Below, piece after piece: positions 5,799-10,081 of a stretch of 15,366 nt of DNA. Under the pieces are notes generated by a model. It saw only the letters and a program-made list of their open reading frames with translations, did not search any database and was not told the DNA's origin. The stretch comes from Acidimicrobiales bacterium (GTDB lineage Bacteria > Actinomycetota > Acidimicrobiia > Acidimicrobiales > Poriferisodalaceae), in assembly GCA_020439485.1 (NCBI GenBank), contig JAGQSP010000110.1, positions 1 through 15,366 on the forward strand. Direction: 5' to 3'. The translations under genes were made by a program, and so were the position numbers. Positions within the stretch are counted from its first letter, which is position 1, and the number at the start of each line of letters is the position of its first letter.

Positions 5799-7031
5799 TC
5801 AGCTCGAAGGAAGCAGAACCGAGTCGATGATGTGCACGGTTGCGTTGGCGGTCTGGACGTCCATGCACAGCGTGGTGGCGGTGCCGTTGACCAGAACCGA
5901 GTCGCCGTCGGCCGTGAAGGTGATGGTCTCGCCGTTCACGGTCTGCGCCGAACCGGCCTCGATGAGCTCGGCCGAGCTGAGTCGCTCACCGGCGAGCACG
6001 TGCAGGGTCAAGACGCTGGTCAGCAGGTCCTGATCGGCCAACACCGCAGCCAGCTGGTCTTCGGGCAGCGCAGCGAACGCATCGTTGACAGGTGCGAAGA
6101 TCGTGAACGGTCCATCGCTGTTCAATGTGTCGACCAGATCGGCCGCCACAACCGCATCGACAAGCGTGCTCAACAGCGGATTGTTCGAAGCAGCAGTGGC
6201 CGCAGTGTCGTCTGCCATGCCGGCAAACGAACCCTCACCATCGGCAGGAACAGCACCACACGCAGGGCCCGAGGGCATCATCGCCGACTCGCCCATCGAG
6301 TCGCCACCCATCGAGTCGCCACCCATCGAGTCATCGGTCATCGCTGCAATGGCGTCGAGAGCCACCTGGGGCAGCAGAACCGAATCGATGATGTGCACAG
6401 TGCCGTTGGCAACCGGCACATCAGAGCAGATGACGTGGGAATCGTTGACGGTCGTACCGTCGGCGCCCAGGCTGACCTCGCCGCCCTCTACGGTGGCAAA
6501 CGTTCCACCGCTCAGTGCGGCTGCGTCGTTGTCACCTGGCACGACGTGATAGGTCAGCACCGCCGTCAGCAAGTCCTTGTCGGCCAGCACGGCGTCGAGG
6601 ATCTCGGGATCGATGGCTGCGAACGCATCGTTGGTCGGGGCGAAGATCGTGAACGGCCCATCGCTGTTCAACGTGTCGACCAGATCGGCCGCCACAACCG
6701 CATCGACCAGCGTGCTCAACAGCGGATTGTTCGAAGCAGCAGTGGCCGCAGTGTCGTCGGCCATGCCGGCAAACGAACCCTCACCATCGGCAGGAACAGC
6801 ACCACACGCAGGGCCGAAGGCTCCCATCATGTCGCCCATTGCGCCGTCATCGACCATGGCTTCGGTGGTTGTCGAAGCCTGAGTCGTGGTGGTCTGGTCG
6901 GCATCTGCCGCGGCATCGCCGTCGTCACTTGCACACGAAGCGAAAACCAGGGCGCCTGCCGCCACCACTGCCGCGAGCCGCAACCTCGAGCGGGCCGGGC
7001 GCTTGTGGTGGTCGAGTCTGTTGTTGTTCAT
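5799..7031 (-). CDS. Tandem fasciclin (FAS1) lipoprotein, MPT70/MPT83-like, with Met-rich linkers
   Basis: A 410-residue exported protein. A basic N-terminus and a hydrophobic stretch (about 17-32) end in the lipobox FAS-C33, so it should be lipid-anchored outside the membrane. A Thr-rich spacer is followed by two FAS1 domains (about 73-223 and 255-410). Both contain ATAASNNPLLSTL, TIFAP and TVHIIDSVLLP, close to what I remember of mycobacterial MPT83/MPT70. Each domain has exactly two cysteines (C76/C202 and C258/C389), a likely disulfide as in MPT70. The linkers are Met-rich: M59, M65, M68, M69, then M231, M236, M241, M246, M251, M252. GAAAGG 7 nt before the ATG fixes the start. It follows the Mo enzyme by 50 bp and has its own SigK-type site at 7140-7167. 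FAS1 proteins usually serve adhesion; a redox role is inferred from context. Confidence 0.9.
   Translation of the reverse strand: MNNNRLDHHKRPARSRLRLAAVVAAGALVFASCASDDGDAAADADQTTTTQASTTTEAMVDDGAMGDMMGAFGPACGAVPADGEGSFAGMADDTAATAASNNPLLSTLVDAVVAADLVDTLNSDGPFTIFAPTNDAFAAIDPEILDAVLADKDLLTAVLTYHVVPGDNDAAALSGGTFATVEGGEVSLGADGTTVNDSHVICSDVPVANGTVHIIDSVLLPQVALDAIAAMTDDSMGGDSMGGDSMGESAMMPSGPACGAVPADGEGSFAGMADDTAATAASNNPLLSTLVDAVVAADLVDTLNSDGPFTIFAPVNDAFAALPEDQLAAVLADQDLLTSVLTLHVLAGERLSSAELIEAGSAQTVNGETITFTADGDSVLVNGTATTLCMDVQTANATVHIIDSVLLPSS
6094..6269 (-). repeat. Internal direct repeat, copy in FAS1 domain 2
   Basis: 176 bp that match 6640-6815 except at four positions. All four differences are synonymous, so the two domains share 60 identical residues (255-314 and 73-132). 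Confidence 0.95.
6292..6332 (-). repeat. 15-bp tandem repeat encoding GDSMG units
   Basis: Plus-strand unit cccatcgagtcgcca occurs at 6292-6306 and 6307-6321, and partially at 6322-6332 (about 2.7 copies). It encodes the repeated DSMGG of the methionine-rich linker between the two FAS1 domains. Such in-frame repeats can expand or contract by slippage. Confidence 0.95.
6640..6815 (-). repeat. Internal direct repeat, copy in FAS1 domain 1
   Basis: Partner of 6094-6269: 172 of 176 bases identical and translation identical. The similarity stops abruptly inside each FAS1 domain; the C-terminal halves are clearly diverged. Confidence 0.95.
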
Positions 7032-7070: not shown

Positions 7071-7120
7071 GGTCACCGGCCTCAGGCCTCGTCTACGAGG
7101 ACCACGACCGTGTGGTGACC
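7071..7120 (-). other. Potential RNA structure in the leader of the fasciclin gene
   Basis: GGTCACC (7071-7077) and GGTGACC (7114-7120) can pair. Inside them CCTCG/CGAGG (7087-7091, 7096-7100) forms a hairpin with a 4-nt loop. The region spans the Mo-enzyme stop codon and lies in the roughly 100-nt leader predicted from the promoter at 7140-7167. It could slow 3' decay or affect translation; no function is shown. Confidence 0.3.
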
Positions 7121-8647
7121 GGTCGCTCCGTTTGGAAGTGGTTCGGAGCGGTCGGCGGTCTGGATGGATCCGTTTCGATCTGTTGCACGAACGGTGACGG
7201 AGTGCCGGCCAGGCGTGGCGTCCCAAGGCATCGACCACTGGCGCCACGTGTCGTCGCTCACGACGTCAGCCAGATCGGCCGGCATCCACGGGCCGTCGTC
7301 TATCGACAGTTCAACTCGCTCGATGCCCACGGTCTGGGCCCACGCCACCCCGCCGATCACGAACGGTCCTGCAGCGATGCGGGCCAGGCCCCTTGGGGTG
7401 TCGATGCGGCTCTGGAGCTTGATGGGTGCCTCGACCGAATAGCCGCGCGGTACCCAGTAGTGATCGAAGGCGTCGAATGTCGTCAGCTCGATCTCGCTGA
7501 GCCACTTGGTTGCCGACACATAGCCGTACAGTCCGGGGACGATGAGCCGCGCCGGGAAGCCGTGGGTCAGCGGCAGCGGCTCGCCGTTCATACCAACGGC
7601 TATCAGGGCGTCGCGGCCGTCCAATGCCGCCACCGGGAACCCGCAGGTGTAGCCGTCGACCGAGCGCCCCACGATCTGGTTTGCGGACGGGTCTATGCCC
7701 GCCTCGTCGAGCAGGTCATCCAGACGGGCGCCCAGCCAGCGGGCGTTGCCGATGAGGTTTCCGCCCACGGTGTTGGAGACGCACGCCAGCGTTATGTCCT
7801 TCTCCACCAGTTGCCGGTCGAGCAGTTCCGCGTAGCTGAGCCGCAGCTCGTTGTCGACCATTCCTGTGACCCTCAGCGACCAGGTATCGACGGGCACCTG
7901 GGGAACCACCAGCGCAGTGTCTATGCGGTAGAAGTCGGCGTTGGGGGTTACGAATGGGGCGGCGTTCTGGGCTTGGGCACCCGCAGGGATGGGGCTCAGA
8001 TCGTTGGCCGGAGGTGGCAGCTGAACCGCCGCCCTCGAATCGGCGACTCCGAAGCGGCCGTTCAGCTTGCGGCCCGCGATGCCGGCAACCCCGGCCCCGG
8101 CAGCGACCACGCCCACAGCGGCAAGGAACCGGCGGCGCTCGTTGGGGTGTTCCATCCCCACGTGCCGAGGCTCGGCCAGGTTTGCGAAGCCCACCAGAGC
8201 CAGCCCAGCGGCGACCGAGCCCACAATCGTCGGAAGCGCCTGCCACCAGGCACCACCCGACCGACTGGTCCAGGCTGCAGCAGAACCCACCAATGCAAAC
8301 AGCGCTATGCCCGCCAGGCCAACCCGAAGCCGGTGCCGAAGTGAGACCACTCCAACGGCGGCGGAGTAGGCGACCAACACCACGGCAATTCCGGCAAGCA
8401 GAGCAAGCTTGTCGTTGGTGCCAAACCAGTCGATTGCCCGCTCCTTCAGGGGGGCCGGCGCCAGATCGACCACCCGATCGCCCACCGACACAACGGGCGA
8501 ACGCAGCGAGCGACTTGCCGCGCCGACCATCTCGGCGATGCCCAAGCCCAGGCCGGCCGAAGCGATCCCCGCAGCCGCCGCGCCTGCGATACCAGGGCGG
8601 GCTGTGTCGTCTCGAGAGTTGGCTTCGGGTTCCTCGCTGGTCTTCAT
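7082..8647 (-). CDS. Membrane-anchored sulfite-oxidase-family molybdopterin oxidoreductase
   Basis: A 521-residue protein. The N-terminal part carries about five hydrophobic segments (19-44, 80-102, 108-126, 134-157, 172-192), with RRRFLAA just before the last. The Mo-cofactor domain of the sulfite oxidase/YedY(MsrP) fold follows (about 230-400). C289 in LACVSNTVGGNLIG is the expected Mo ligand, and GFPARLIVPGLYG is typical of the family. An Ig-like dimerisation domain of sulfite-oxidase type ends the chain (about 427-520). Membrane topology should place the catalytic part outside. The substrate is unknown; MsrP relatives reduce methionine sulfoxide in exported proteins. The ATG at 8647 has no Shine-Dalgarno and lies 7 nt after a SigK-type -10, suggesting a leaderless mRNA. 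It stands between rskA and the fasciclin gene. Confidence 0.88.
   Translation of the reverse strand: MKTSEEPEANSRDDTARPGIAGAAAAGIASAGLGLGIAEMVGAASRSLRSPVVSVGDRVVDLAPAPLKERAIDWFGTNDKLALLAGIAVVLVAYSAAVGVVSLRHRLRVGLAGIALFALVGSAAAWTSRSGGAWWQALPTIVGSVAAGLALVGFANLAEPRHVGMEHPNERRRFLAAVGVVAAGAGVAGIAGRKLNGRFGVADSRAAVQLPPPANDLSPIPAGAQAQNAAPFVTPNADFYRIDTALVVPQVPVDTWSLRVTGMVDNELRLSYAELLDRQLVEKDITLACVSNTVGGNLIGNARWLGARLDDLLDEAGIDPSANQIVGRSVDGYTCGFPVAALDGRDALIAVGMNGEPLPLTHGFPARLIVPGLYGYVSATKWLSEIELTTFDAFDHYWVPRGYSVEAPIKLQSRIDTPRGLARIAAGPFVIGGVAWAQTVGIERVELSIDDGPWMPADLADVVSDDTWRQWSMPWDATPGRHSVTVRATDRNGSIQTADRSEPLPNGATGHHTVVVLVDEA
7140..7167 (-). promoter_or_regulatory. SigK-type promoter for the fasciclin lipoprotein gene
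   Basis: On the minus strand CCATCC (7167-7162), 15 nt, then CCGAACC (7146-7140). It lies within the 3' end of the Mo-enzyme gene. It shares the pattern CCATCCA-N11-GCTCCGAACC with the sites at 8654-8681 and 10054-10081, while the 11 central bases differ. Predicted start near 7133, about 100 nt before the ATG. Confidence 0.75.
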
Positions 8648-8653
8648 GAACCA

Positions 8654-8681
8654 GGTTCGGAGCCCTCGGCCTGGTGGATGG
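8654..8681 (-). promoter_or_regulatory. SigK-type promoter for the Mo oxidoreductase gene
   Basis: On the minus strand CCATCC (8681-8676), 15 nt, then CCGAACC (8660-8654). The -35 begins directly after the rskA stop codon. The expected transcription start coincides with the ATG at 8647, so the transcript would be leaderless. Confidence 0.8.
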
Positions 8682-8682
8682 G

Positions 8683-9393
8683 CTAGCTCGTCTCGCCGAC
8701 CAGCAGGATCTCCCCGGTCGGCACATCTGAGCCGGTGTCGGGTTCGATGGTGATGCCCCAAGCCGCCGGGGCCCGCCCTTGGAGTTCAAGCGCAAGACGA
8801 ATCGACCCGTCCTGTGGTGAGAACAGGCCCGTAGGGTTCGGGCCCTCGGCATCTATCAGCCACAGCTCGTAGGCGTTGCCTTCGCCGGGTTCGGCCAACC
8901 CGTTGGCAACCAAGACAGCCCGGTCCTGCGACGCCGACCAGACGACGCTGGCCTCGCCTGCATCGCCAACCAGCTCGGTGGAGCGGGCGTCGTAGGCAAA
9001 CAGAAGCTCGGTCGACTCGTCCCTGGTTGTTGCTGCCACCTGCATTCCAGCGAGGAACCCGGCCACTGCGACTACGGCCGCGGCGGCAAAGGCCAGAACG
9101 CGCCTTCTGGGAAGGTCTCGCCGCTTGCGTTCGGCCAGATCGACGACGCTGTCGGGAAGCGAGGGAGCGATCTGTCTGACCTGGCTGATCTCTGCAAACA
9201 CTCGTTCTCGTACAGCCGATGGCGCATCGGTGGCCGTAGACGAGGCGAGCTTTGCTGCTGCCTCTCTGAACTCGGCCACATCGGCCGAGCAGATCGAGCA
9301 GGTCGGCAGGAACGCCTCGAATGCACGAGCCTCTTCTTCGTCCAGGGCATCGAGGGCGTATGCCGCGGCGAGGTGATGAAAGTCGGCGGTCAT
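8683..9393 (-). CDS. rskA: RskA-like anti-sigma factor with zinc-type HCC motif
   Basis: A 236-residue single-pass membrane protein. The cytoplasmic N-terminal domain reads FHHLAAAYALDALDEEEARAF, followed by C32-SI-C35; with H6 or H7 this forms the zinc-binding anti-sigma (ZAS) pattern. A basic stretch precedes one membrane helix (about 98-120). The extracytoplasmic part (about 122-236) matches the RskA C-terminal domain, with AYELWLIDAEGPNPTGLFSPQDG and AAWGITIEPDTG. It should bind and inhibit the adjacent sigma factor and release it after regulated proteolysis. Its ATG overlaps the sigma stop codon (ATGA), indicating translational coupling. As I recall, mycobacterial RskA lacks the zinc cysteines, so this is the more ancestral-looking form. 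Confidence 0.9.
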   Translation of the reverse strand: MTADFHHLAAAYALDALDEEEARAFEAFLPTCSICSADVAEFREAAAKLASSTATDAPSAVRERVFAEISQVRQIAPSLPDSVVDLAERKRRDLPRRRVLAFAAAAVVAVAGFLAGMQVAATTRDESTELLFAYDARSTELVGDAGEASVVWSASQDRAVLVANGLAEPGEGNAYELWLIDAEGPNPTGLFSPQDGSIRLALELQGRAPAAWGITIEPDTGSDVPTGEILLVGETS

Positions 9394-9971
9394 CGGTTCA
9401 CCCCCAGGTGATCTCTCAGCTTGATGAGGCCGTCACGTATGCGGCCTTTGACGGTCCCTTCGGCGGCACCGAGCAACGCTGCCACCTCTCTATAAGTGTG
9501 GCCGTCGAAATAGGCGAGCTCGACAGCTGCCCTTTGATCCTTGGTCAGATGGTCCAGTGCGGCCATCACGCGGGTGCGCTCGAACCTGTCGATCACCACC
9601 TCGCTGACCTGGTCGTGATCGGTTTCGGCCTGGCGGCCGATCAGGTCATTGCGGTTGCGGTGGGATTGCTCGGAGCGAGCCCGGTCGACGGCTCGACGAT
9701 GGGCCATCGTCGCGATCCACGACGACGCGGCGCCACGATCGGGGTCGTACCGGGCCGCCAGACGCCACGCCTCGACGAACACCTCTTGGGTGACTTCCTC
9801 GGCATGTGACGGGTCACGCAGGACGCGCAGCACCAGGCCATAGACCATGCTCGACGTTGCGTCGTAGAAGTGCCCGAAGGCCTGCTGGTCACCGCGCCCT
9901 GCTGCGGCCAGAGCCGCCGAAGCGGCATCGCGTTCGTTGAATGGGTCGGTCGATGGGCGATCGTTCACCAT
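9390..9971 (-). CDS. sigK: ECF sigma factor, SigK-like
   Basis: A 193-residue ECF sigma factor. Region sigma2 (about 25-95) contains MVYGLVLRVLRDPSHAEEVTQEVFVEAWR and ARYDPDRGAASSWIATMAHRRAVDRAR; the last is typical of SigK relatives. Region sigma4 (about 130-187) contains LTKDQRAAVELAYFDGHTYREVAALLGAAEGTVKGRIRDGL, the -35-binding helix-turn-helix. GAGGG 10 nt upstream supports ATG 9971; a further 11 codons of open frame upstream are less likely. The first gene of a four-gene block, it is stop-start overlapped with its anti-sigma. A SigK-type promoter 83 nt upstream of the ATG implies positive autoregulation. The protein contains no cysteine, so the SigK disulfide switch reported in M. tuberculosis cannot operate here. 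Confidence 0.92.
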   Translation of the reverse strand: MVNDRPSTDPFNERDAASAALAAAGRGDQQAFGHFYDATSSMVYGLVLRVLRDPSHAEEVTQEVFVEAWRLAARYDPDRGAASSWIATMAHRRAVDRARSEQSHRNRNDLIGRQAETDHDQVSEVVIDRFERTRVMAALDHLTKDQRAAVELAYFDGHTYREVAALLGAAEGTVKGRIRDGLIKLRDHLGVNR

Positions 9972-10053
9972 GCGAAGTCGCCCTCGACGGTACGGCTCAC
10001 GCATCGCCCGGCCACATCCTCAGGCCACATCGGCCGATCAGAATCATGCCCCC

Positions 10054-10081
10054 GGTTCGGAGCCGCCGCCCTCCTGGATGG
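10054..10081 (-). promoter_or_regulatory. SigK-type autoregulatory promoter of the sigma/anti-sigma operon
   Basis: On the minus strand CCATCC (10081-10076), 15 nt, then CCGAACC (10060-10054). Predicted start near 10047, giving a leader of about 76 nt. The rest of the 277-bp gap 9972-10248 shows nothing else convincing apart from the direct repeat GGCCACATC at about 10010 and 10023. Confidence 0.8.

Follow-up and report, generated by a model that had tools for sequence, protein, structure and literature searches.

We analyzed a stretch of 15,366 nucleotides (nt) from an Acidimicrobiales bacterium (contig JAGQSP010000110.1 of assembly GCA_020439485.1), referred to below as the window. Four co-linear genes with short gaps lie on its minus strand and encode an extracytoplasmic function (ECF) sigma factor of the SigK family, an RskA-type anti-sigma factor, a molybdopterin oxidoreductase (Mo enzyme), and a fasciclin protein. 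The same 28-base motif occurs three times in this block, once inside the coding sequence of the Mo gene, and we asked whether the three copies could be SigK promoters. The features of the block are as follows.

10054 to 10081, minus strand: P1, predicted SigK promoter of sigK-rskA; exact motif, CCGAA at 10056-10060, predicted start near 10047
9997 to 10047, minus strand: 16-codon open reading frame (ORF) in a different frame from sigK, opening at the start predicted for P1; possibly a leaderless leader ORF, or just untranslated leader
9390 to 10004, minus strand: ECF sigma factor, SigK family; Pfam Sigma70_r2 and r4_2, NF007228, PDB 4nqw
8683 to 9393, minus strand: RskA-type anti-sigma factor; PF10099 RskA_C, NF052375; 4-base overlap with the end of sigK
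8654 to 8681, minus strand: P2, predicted SigK promoter of the Mo-enzyme gene; exact motif, one base past the rskA stop
7082 to 8647, minus strand: molybdopterin oxidoreductase, sulfite-oxidase superfamily; PF00174 (E 3.5e-42), N-terminal region hydrophobic (by eye)
7140 to 7167, minus strand: P3, predicted SigK promoter of the fasciclin gene; exact motif within the codons of SIQTADRSEP, predicted start near 7133
5799 to 7031, minus strand: two-domain fasciclin protein, MPT83-like in kind; PF02469 (E 7e-67, two stretches), start codon at 7031

Profile models confirmed the gene identities given in a preliminary description of this DNA, which had listed a sigma and anti-sigma factor, a Mo enzyme, and a fasciclin lipoprotein. 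The sigma factor passes the curated SigK model NF007228 (242 bits, cut-off 226) and its best match in the PDB is Mycobacterium tuberculosis SigK (4nqw, E 8e-43); its true start is probably at 9971 (MVNDRP...), judging by eye from a nearby GAGG. The anti-sigma factor matches RskA_C (PF10099, E 6e-21, 75.5 bits, cut-off 29.4) and passes NF052375 (170 bits, cut-off 100), with RskA_N slightly under its cut-off (25.6 bits, cut-off 27). The Mo enzyme shares the molybdopterin-binding domain of SorA, SoxC, SorT, and MsrP (Oxidored_molyb superfamily), and sulfite dehydrogenases in the PDB match it from E 3e-19. The NCBI models of all four enzymes also match it in part. It differs from them in its hydrophobic N-terminal region and in scoring far under every curated equivalog cut-off (SorA model, 121 bits vs 600). 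The fasciclin protein has a lipobox, LVFASC, recognized by eye.

A search of the whole window for CCATCCA-N11-GCTCCGAACC found exact minus-strand copies at 7140-7167, 8654-8681, and 10054-10081, the three positions reported in the preliminary description, and the first of them falls within the coding end of the Mo gene, as also reported. The chance expectation for the exact 28-base pattern was 0 (200 dinucleotide shuffles), and a tolerance of 3 mismatches yielded no extra copy within the window. Scanning the organism's own genome with this pattern, which had been proposed as a check, gave three matches, all from the window block, and none for the reversed control. This assembly is fragmented (3,889,074 bases in 777 contigs, 77% complete) and its missing part may hold further sites. 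With up to 3 mismatches there were 21 matches compared with 13 for the reversed control, the two next best having 2 mismatches, and the relaxed form CMATCC-N15-CCGAAC gave 6 matches (the window's three and three others) with none for the control. Six weaker matches in this genome (L004, L005, L026, L313-L315) were inspected; none has an ATG or GTG 8 nt past CCGAA and they are probably chance occurrences. Both the exact and the relaxed scan of the available 77% of the genome fit the earlier term "local regulon".

We next looked for the site in relatives, using loci gathered around sigma and Mo homologues that were picked by likeness to the window's proteins and include distant homologues. The general form of the site in these loci is (C/A)ATCC-N15-CCGAA. 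Most relatives have CAATCC rather than CCATCC, and we used (C/A)ATCC because a pattern restricted to CCATCC would miss most of their sites. The gap between ATCC and CCGAA is 15 in 85 of 99 site rows, 16 in 13, and 14 in one, counting the window's three sites and one duplicate locus. The preliminary description had likened the motif to the mycobacterial SigK consensus and given it a spacing of 16 or 17, a value that may follow another counting rule; the gap between ATCC and CCGAA in the window block is 15. Sites of the form (C/A)ATCC-N14-16-CCGAA were present within 480 base pairs (bp) upstream of the aligned gene start in 36 of 57 loci for fasciclin, 30 of 102 for the Mo enzyme, and 30 of 85 for sigma (locus L241 duplicates L085 and is counted twice in these tallies), compared with a background of about 0.006 per 500 bp estimated from unclaimed sites. 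Within Micrococcaceae (L073-L084, L086, L087, L098), where the fasciclin gene is upstream of sigK-rskA-Mo, each of the 15 loci has CAATCC-N15-CCGAA ahead of the fasciclin gene, and 13 also have it ahead of the Mo gene.

The site also recurs when no protein is used to find it. Scanning 397 genomes of the order with the strict form MATCC-N12-GCTCCGAAC gave 60 hits in 41 genomes; the reversed pattern gave 7 (by eye). Equal frequency of the site in unrelated genes would have spoken against the earlier promoter reading, and this is not what we see: in 31 of the 60 hits, the window's three included, a homologue of the sigma, Mo, or fasciclin gene lies at the hit or within 700 bp downstream (by eye; hits inside the Mo gene were counted via the gene's own tail). 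Among the 29 hits without such a neighbor are a few possible targets in which a start codon follows at 8 nt; the remainder probably include chance matches.

P3 falls within the last 30 codons of the Mo gene, and its DNA would thus be under double selection, as promoter and as protein-coding sequence. An internal site is present at the identical codons in 12 of 99 Mo loci (of the 102, L155 at a contig end, L080 with a tail unreadable in frame, and L241 were removed). It occurs in 11 of 36 loci with a fasciclin gene within 600 bp downstream and in none of 59 loci without (Fisher p 8e-6, with species that are not independent); four contig-end loci were kept apart, one of which (L245) has the internal site. 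Among eight Mo loci found later, the site was present in all five assessable loci with fasciclin downstream and in neither of two without, while one was unassessable; having been retrieved by their similarity to the Mo protein of the window, these loci are near relatives. A reading of one late locus, L382, as a Mo-fasciclin fusion was dropped because the available sequence does not cover that part, and the locus was not counted.

Although the 12 loci were initially selected by the DNA pattern, a definition free of DNA returns the same set: the Mo proteins that read I..R[ST]E at the site columns are exactly the 12 with the DNA site. These proteins are 49-65% identical in pairwise comparisons, none of their genes contains an internal stop, and residues shared elsewhere in them use the same codon in a median of 45% of cases. 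Codon usage at the site is different. The codons ATC (Ile), CGC (Arg), TCC (Ser; 11 rows, L239 having Thr ACC), and GAA (Glu) are invariant, and these four columns are among only 12 codon-invariant columns out of 165 invariant degenerate ones. The site's Glu, Arg, and Ser are the sole codon-invariant columns among 6 Glu, 17 Arg, and 5 Ser columns, and GAA is kept even in genes in which it makes up 4-12% of Glu codons. Under each gene's own codon usage, the log10 probability of the observed site codons is -23.6, ignoring relatedness. The site's Gln, Thr, and Pro columns, the third bases of which fall in the spacer or past the box, are not codon-invariant.

The distance from the site to start codons provides another kind of evidence. 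The predicted starts at 10047, 8647, and 7133 each lie immediately past the 8 nt that follow CCGAA, and for P2 this position is the A of the ATG at 8647. Outside Micrococcaceae, 15 of 17 Mo site rows have an ATG or GTG exactly 8 nt past CCGAA, all 15 in frame, compared with a background of 3% of positions in the same loci; in 13 Micrococcaceae loci a start codon lies 6 nt past CCGAA, in frame in 5. The Mo genes are therefore probably transcribed into leaderless mRNAs, with the start codon marking the transcription start. Of 29 rows with a sigma site, 19 show a start codon at 8 nt; it is in frame with sigma in 11 of these, and the position of these codons suggests that sigma mRNAs may be leaderless in some species. 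The in-frame codon in these 11 rows would give an N-terminally extended, leaderless sigma factor. We also considered whether a leaderless leader ORF might regulate sigK and make no such claim, as 11 of the 19 rows are in frame and 8 are out of frame, the window being among the latter.

Taken together, the recurrence of the site, the start codons at a fixed distance, and the codon conservation at P3 support the earlier reading of the motif copies as promoters. We consider it very probable that the block is a SigK/RskA regulon with three predicted promoters of the same sequence, the third embedded in the Mo gene. Several observations weigh against this interpretation. No upstream site was found in 55 of 85 sigma loci and 72 of 102 Mo loci, in a sample that includes distant homologues. 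At P1 of the window the ATG at 8 nt is out of frame with sigK and opens the ORF at 9997-10047. The fasciclin site rows outside Micrococcaceae have a start codon at 8 nt in only 2 of 21 cases, none in frame, and hence the start-codon argument does not apply to P3; fasciclin mRNAs would carry a leader, of about 100 nt in the window. Moreover, 25 Mo loci with fasciclin downstream lack an internal site, and most distant Mo-fasciclin neighbors, outside the window's Mo clade, show neither an internal nor an intergenic site. Distant fasciclins may also have been missed, because the search for them relied on similarity to the fasciclin protein of the window.

Could the match at P3 simply follow from the protein, the Mo enzyme needing the peptide IQTxxRSEP? 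The QTxxR core is indeed common in Mo homologues without any site, but the combination of I and R[ST]E is confined to site-bearing loci, the codons CGC, TCC, and GAA are invariant even where GAA is rare, and there is no internal site where fasciclin is not close downstream. We therefore give almost no credence to a coding coincidence and conclude from the sequence comparisons that the intragenic copy is not a coding accident. P1 alone might instead drive one polycistronic mRNA, P2 and P3 being weak or inactive relics, and the short gaps between the four co-linear genes would allow read-through. Yet relics would hardly retain a codon-invariant P3 across proteins as divergent as these, and in several relatives (e.g., L138, L140, L141) the Mo-fasciclin pair is directed away from sigK, which makes promoter sharing impossible; this explanation is highly improbable.

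It is also quite unlikely, if a little less so, that the sites are real but are read by another ECF sigma factor or a repressor instead of the adjacent SigK. SigK specificity is deduced from the neighborhood only, and in genome G040 a single contig carries both the sigma locus (L135) and, far from it, the Mo-fasciclin locus (L239), both with sites, an arrangement that would fit SigK acting at a distance as well. Two observations argue against another factor: in 30 of 85 loci the sigma gene has a site of its own upstream, and excerpts of PMC7509140 and PMC9861118 describe SigK sites in front of the fasciclin genes mpt83 and mpt70. We infer that SigK would recognize the three sites and that transcripts would start there.

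We then asked how the internal site is distributed among the Mo proteins. In a tree of 57 Mo proteins, 11 of the 12 internal-site rows fall into one supported clade of 22 rows, with L247 outside. Internal-site loci are interspersed with intergenic-site loci and with loci that have no fasciclin behind the Mo gene. The starred branches of the tree force at least 5 changes of the internal-site state, and the label shows no excess clustering over shuffled labels (121 of 500 shuffles gave a value as low). A fasciclin gene lies downstream in 17 loci of the clade: 10 have an exact internal site, 3 have an exact intergenic site, and 4 have one-base variants (by eye, strings checked), namely AGTCC in L251 and ACGAA in L240, both internal, and TCGAA with a spacer of 16 in L244 and L246, both intergenic. 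We consider it likely that in this clade of the window's order the promoter has been embedded long enough to dictate the Mo protein: I and R-S/T-E would exist because ATCC and CGC-TCC-GAA are required in the DNA, and in loci where fasciclin is no longer close by or is served by an intergenic promoter, codons and residues would be released.

The system itself is patchily distributed. Of 39 genomes of the window's family, 2, including its own, have a sigma relative at E 1e-25. At this threshold none is found in G004, which belongs to the same genus and also lacks a Mo homologue at E 1e-150. By contrast, locus L380 in a genome from another family (G1048, f20) contains the complete co-linear block (70/65/73% identical), and CATCC sites occupy all three corresponding positions. 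This distribution would be compatible with either transfer or frequent loss.

A few further genes in relatives are associated with SigK-type sites. ORFs of 116 and 86 codons (L244:6779-7129 and L246:2867-3127) start 8 nt past such a site upstream of sigK. Their sole match is to the RskA N-terminal domain (PF22618), slightly over the cut-off for the former and under it for the latter; they possibly encode a soluble second anti-sigma factor. Sites with an ATG 8 nt past CCGAA also precede genes for a cupredoxin lipoprotein (L137:7751-8122), a lipocalin-like protein (L356:2715-3320), and a protein with only sub-threshold desaturase/rubrerythrin matches (L358:2536-3336), which are possible members of a wider regulon.

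The block resembles the mycobacterial SigK-RskA regulon (mpt83, dipZ, mpt70, sigK-rskA), which likewise has a SigK-family sigma factor with an adjacent RskA and a fasciclin lipoprotein as target. Reportedly, Veyrier and colleagues proposed mpt83-sigK-rskA as a minimal cassette in 2008. In the window, 110 bases separate the CCGAA of P3 from the fasciclin start, and a SigK-type site is thus present upstream of an mpt83-like gene, the likeness to the mycobacterial box being that given in the preliminary description. Mycobacteria are already known to have SigK, RskA, fasciclin targets, and a separate promoter for each gene. Excerpts of PMC9861118 give one SigK-dependent promoter each for mpt83, mpt70, and dipZ, and those of PMC7509140 state that SigK sites are conserved across Actinobacteria and that mpt83 of Yersinia also has them upstream. 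Unlike the mycobacterial regulon, the window block has a Mo enzyme as a predicted target and a predicted promoter lying within the preceding gene's coding sequence. Among the literature matches listed we found no SigK regulon with a Mo enzyme or an intragenic SigK promoter; these matches do not cover the original 2008 regulon study, and we do not claim absence from print.

The sigma factor also differs from M. tuberculosis SigK, which has the cysteine pair C133/C183. There are no cysteines in the translated window sigma factor and hence no equivalents of this pair, so that a switch based on it could not operate here. According to excerpts of PMC7509140, the pair is conserved in 94% of ECF18 members but in only 56% of ECF19 members. 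Helix 1 of the window RskA (HHLAAAYALDAL) is identical at 10 of 12 positions (by eye) to the consensus of the class I anti-sigma group AS19-1, which goes with ECF19 (HTLAGAYALDAL; excerpt of PMC7406223). The placement of M. tuberculosis SigK differs between the two excerpted sources, in ECF18 (PMC7509140) or with AS19-1 (PMC7406223).

We envisage that RskA would hold SigK at the membrane and that an envelope signal would free it, a release mechanism modeled on the mycobacterial system. Free SigK would then drive P1 for autoregulation of sigK-rskA, P2 for the Mo enzyme from a leaderless mRNA, and P3 for the fasciclin lipoprotein. Excerpts of PMC7509140 on mycobacteria and Yersinia report that RskA inhibits SigK, can also activate it, and is cut by proteases. 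The combination of a Mo enzyme of the sulfite-oxidase superfamily with a surface fasciclin lipoprotein suggests an envelope or oxidant response. For the predicted promoters, the start sites are specified to the base. As an example from nature of a promoter within conserved coding sequence, these loci are unusually clean, and they come with their own controls: the Mo gene occurs both with and without the target behind it, and some loci have the promoter in the intergenic region instead. The predicted regulon would extend SigK control to a Mo enzyme in a little-studied group of bacteria.

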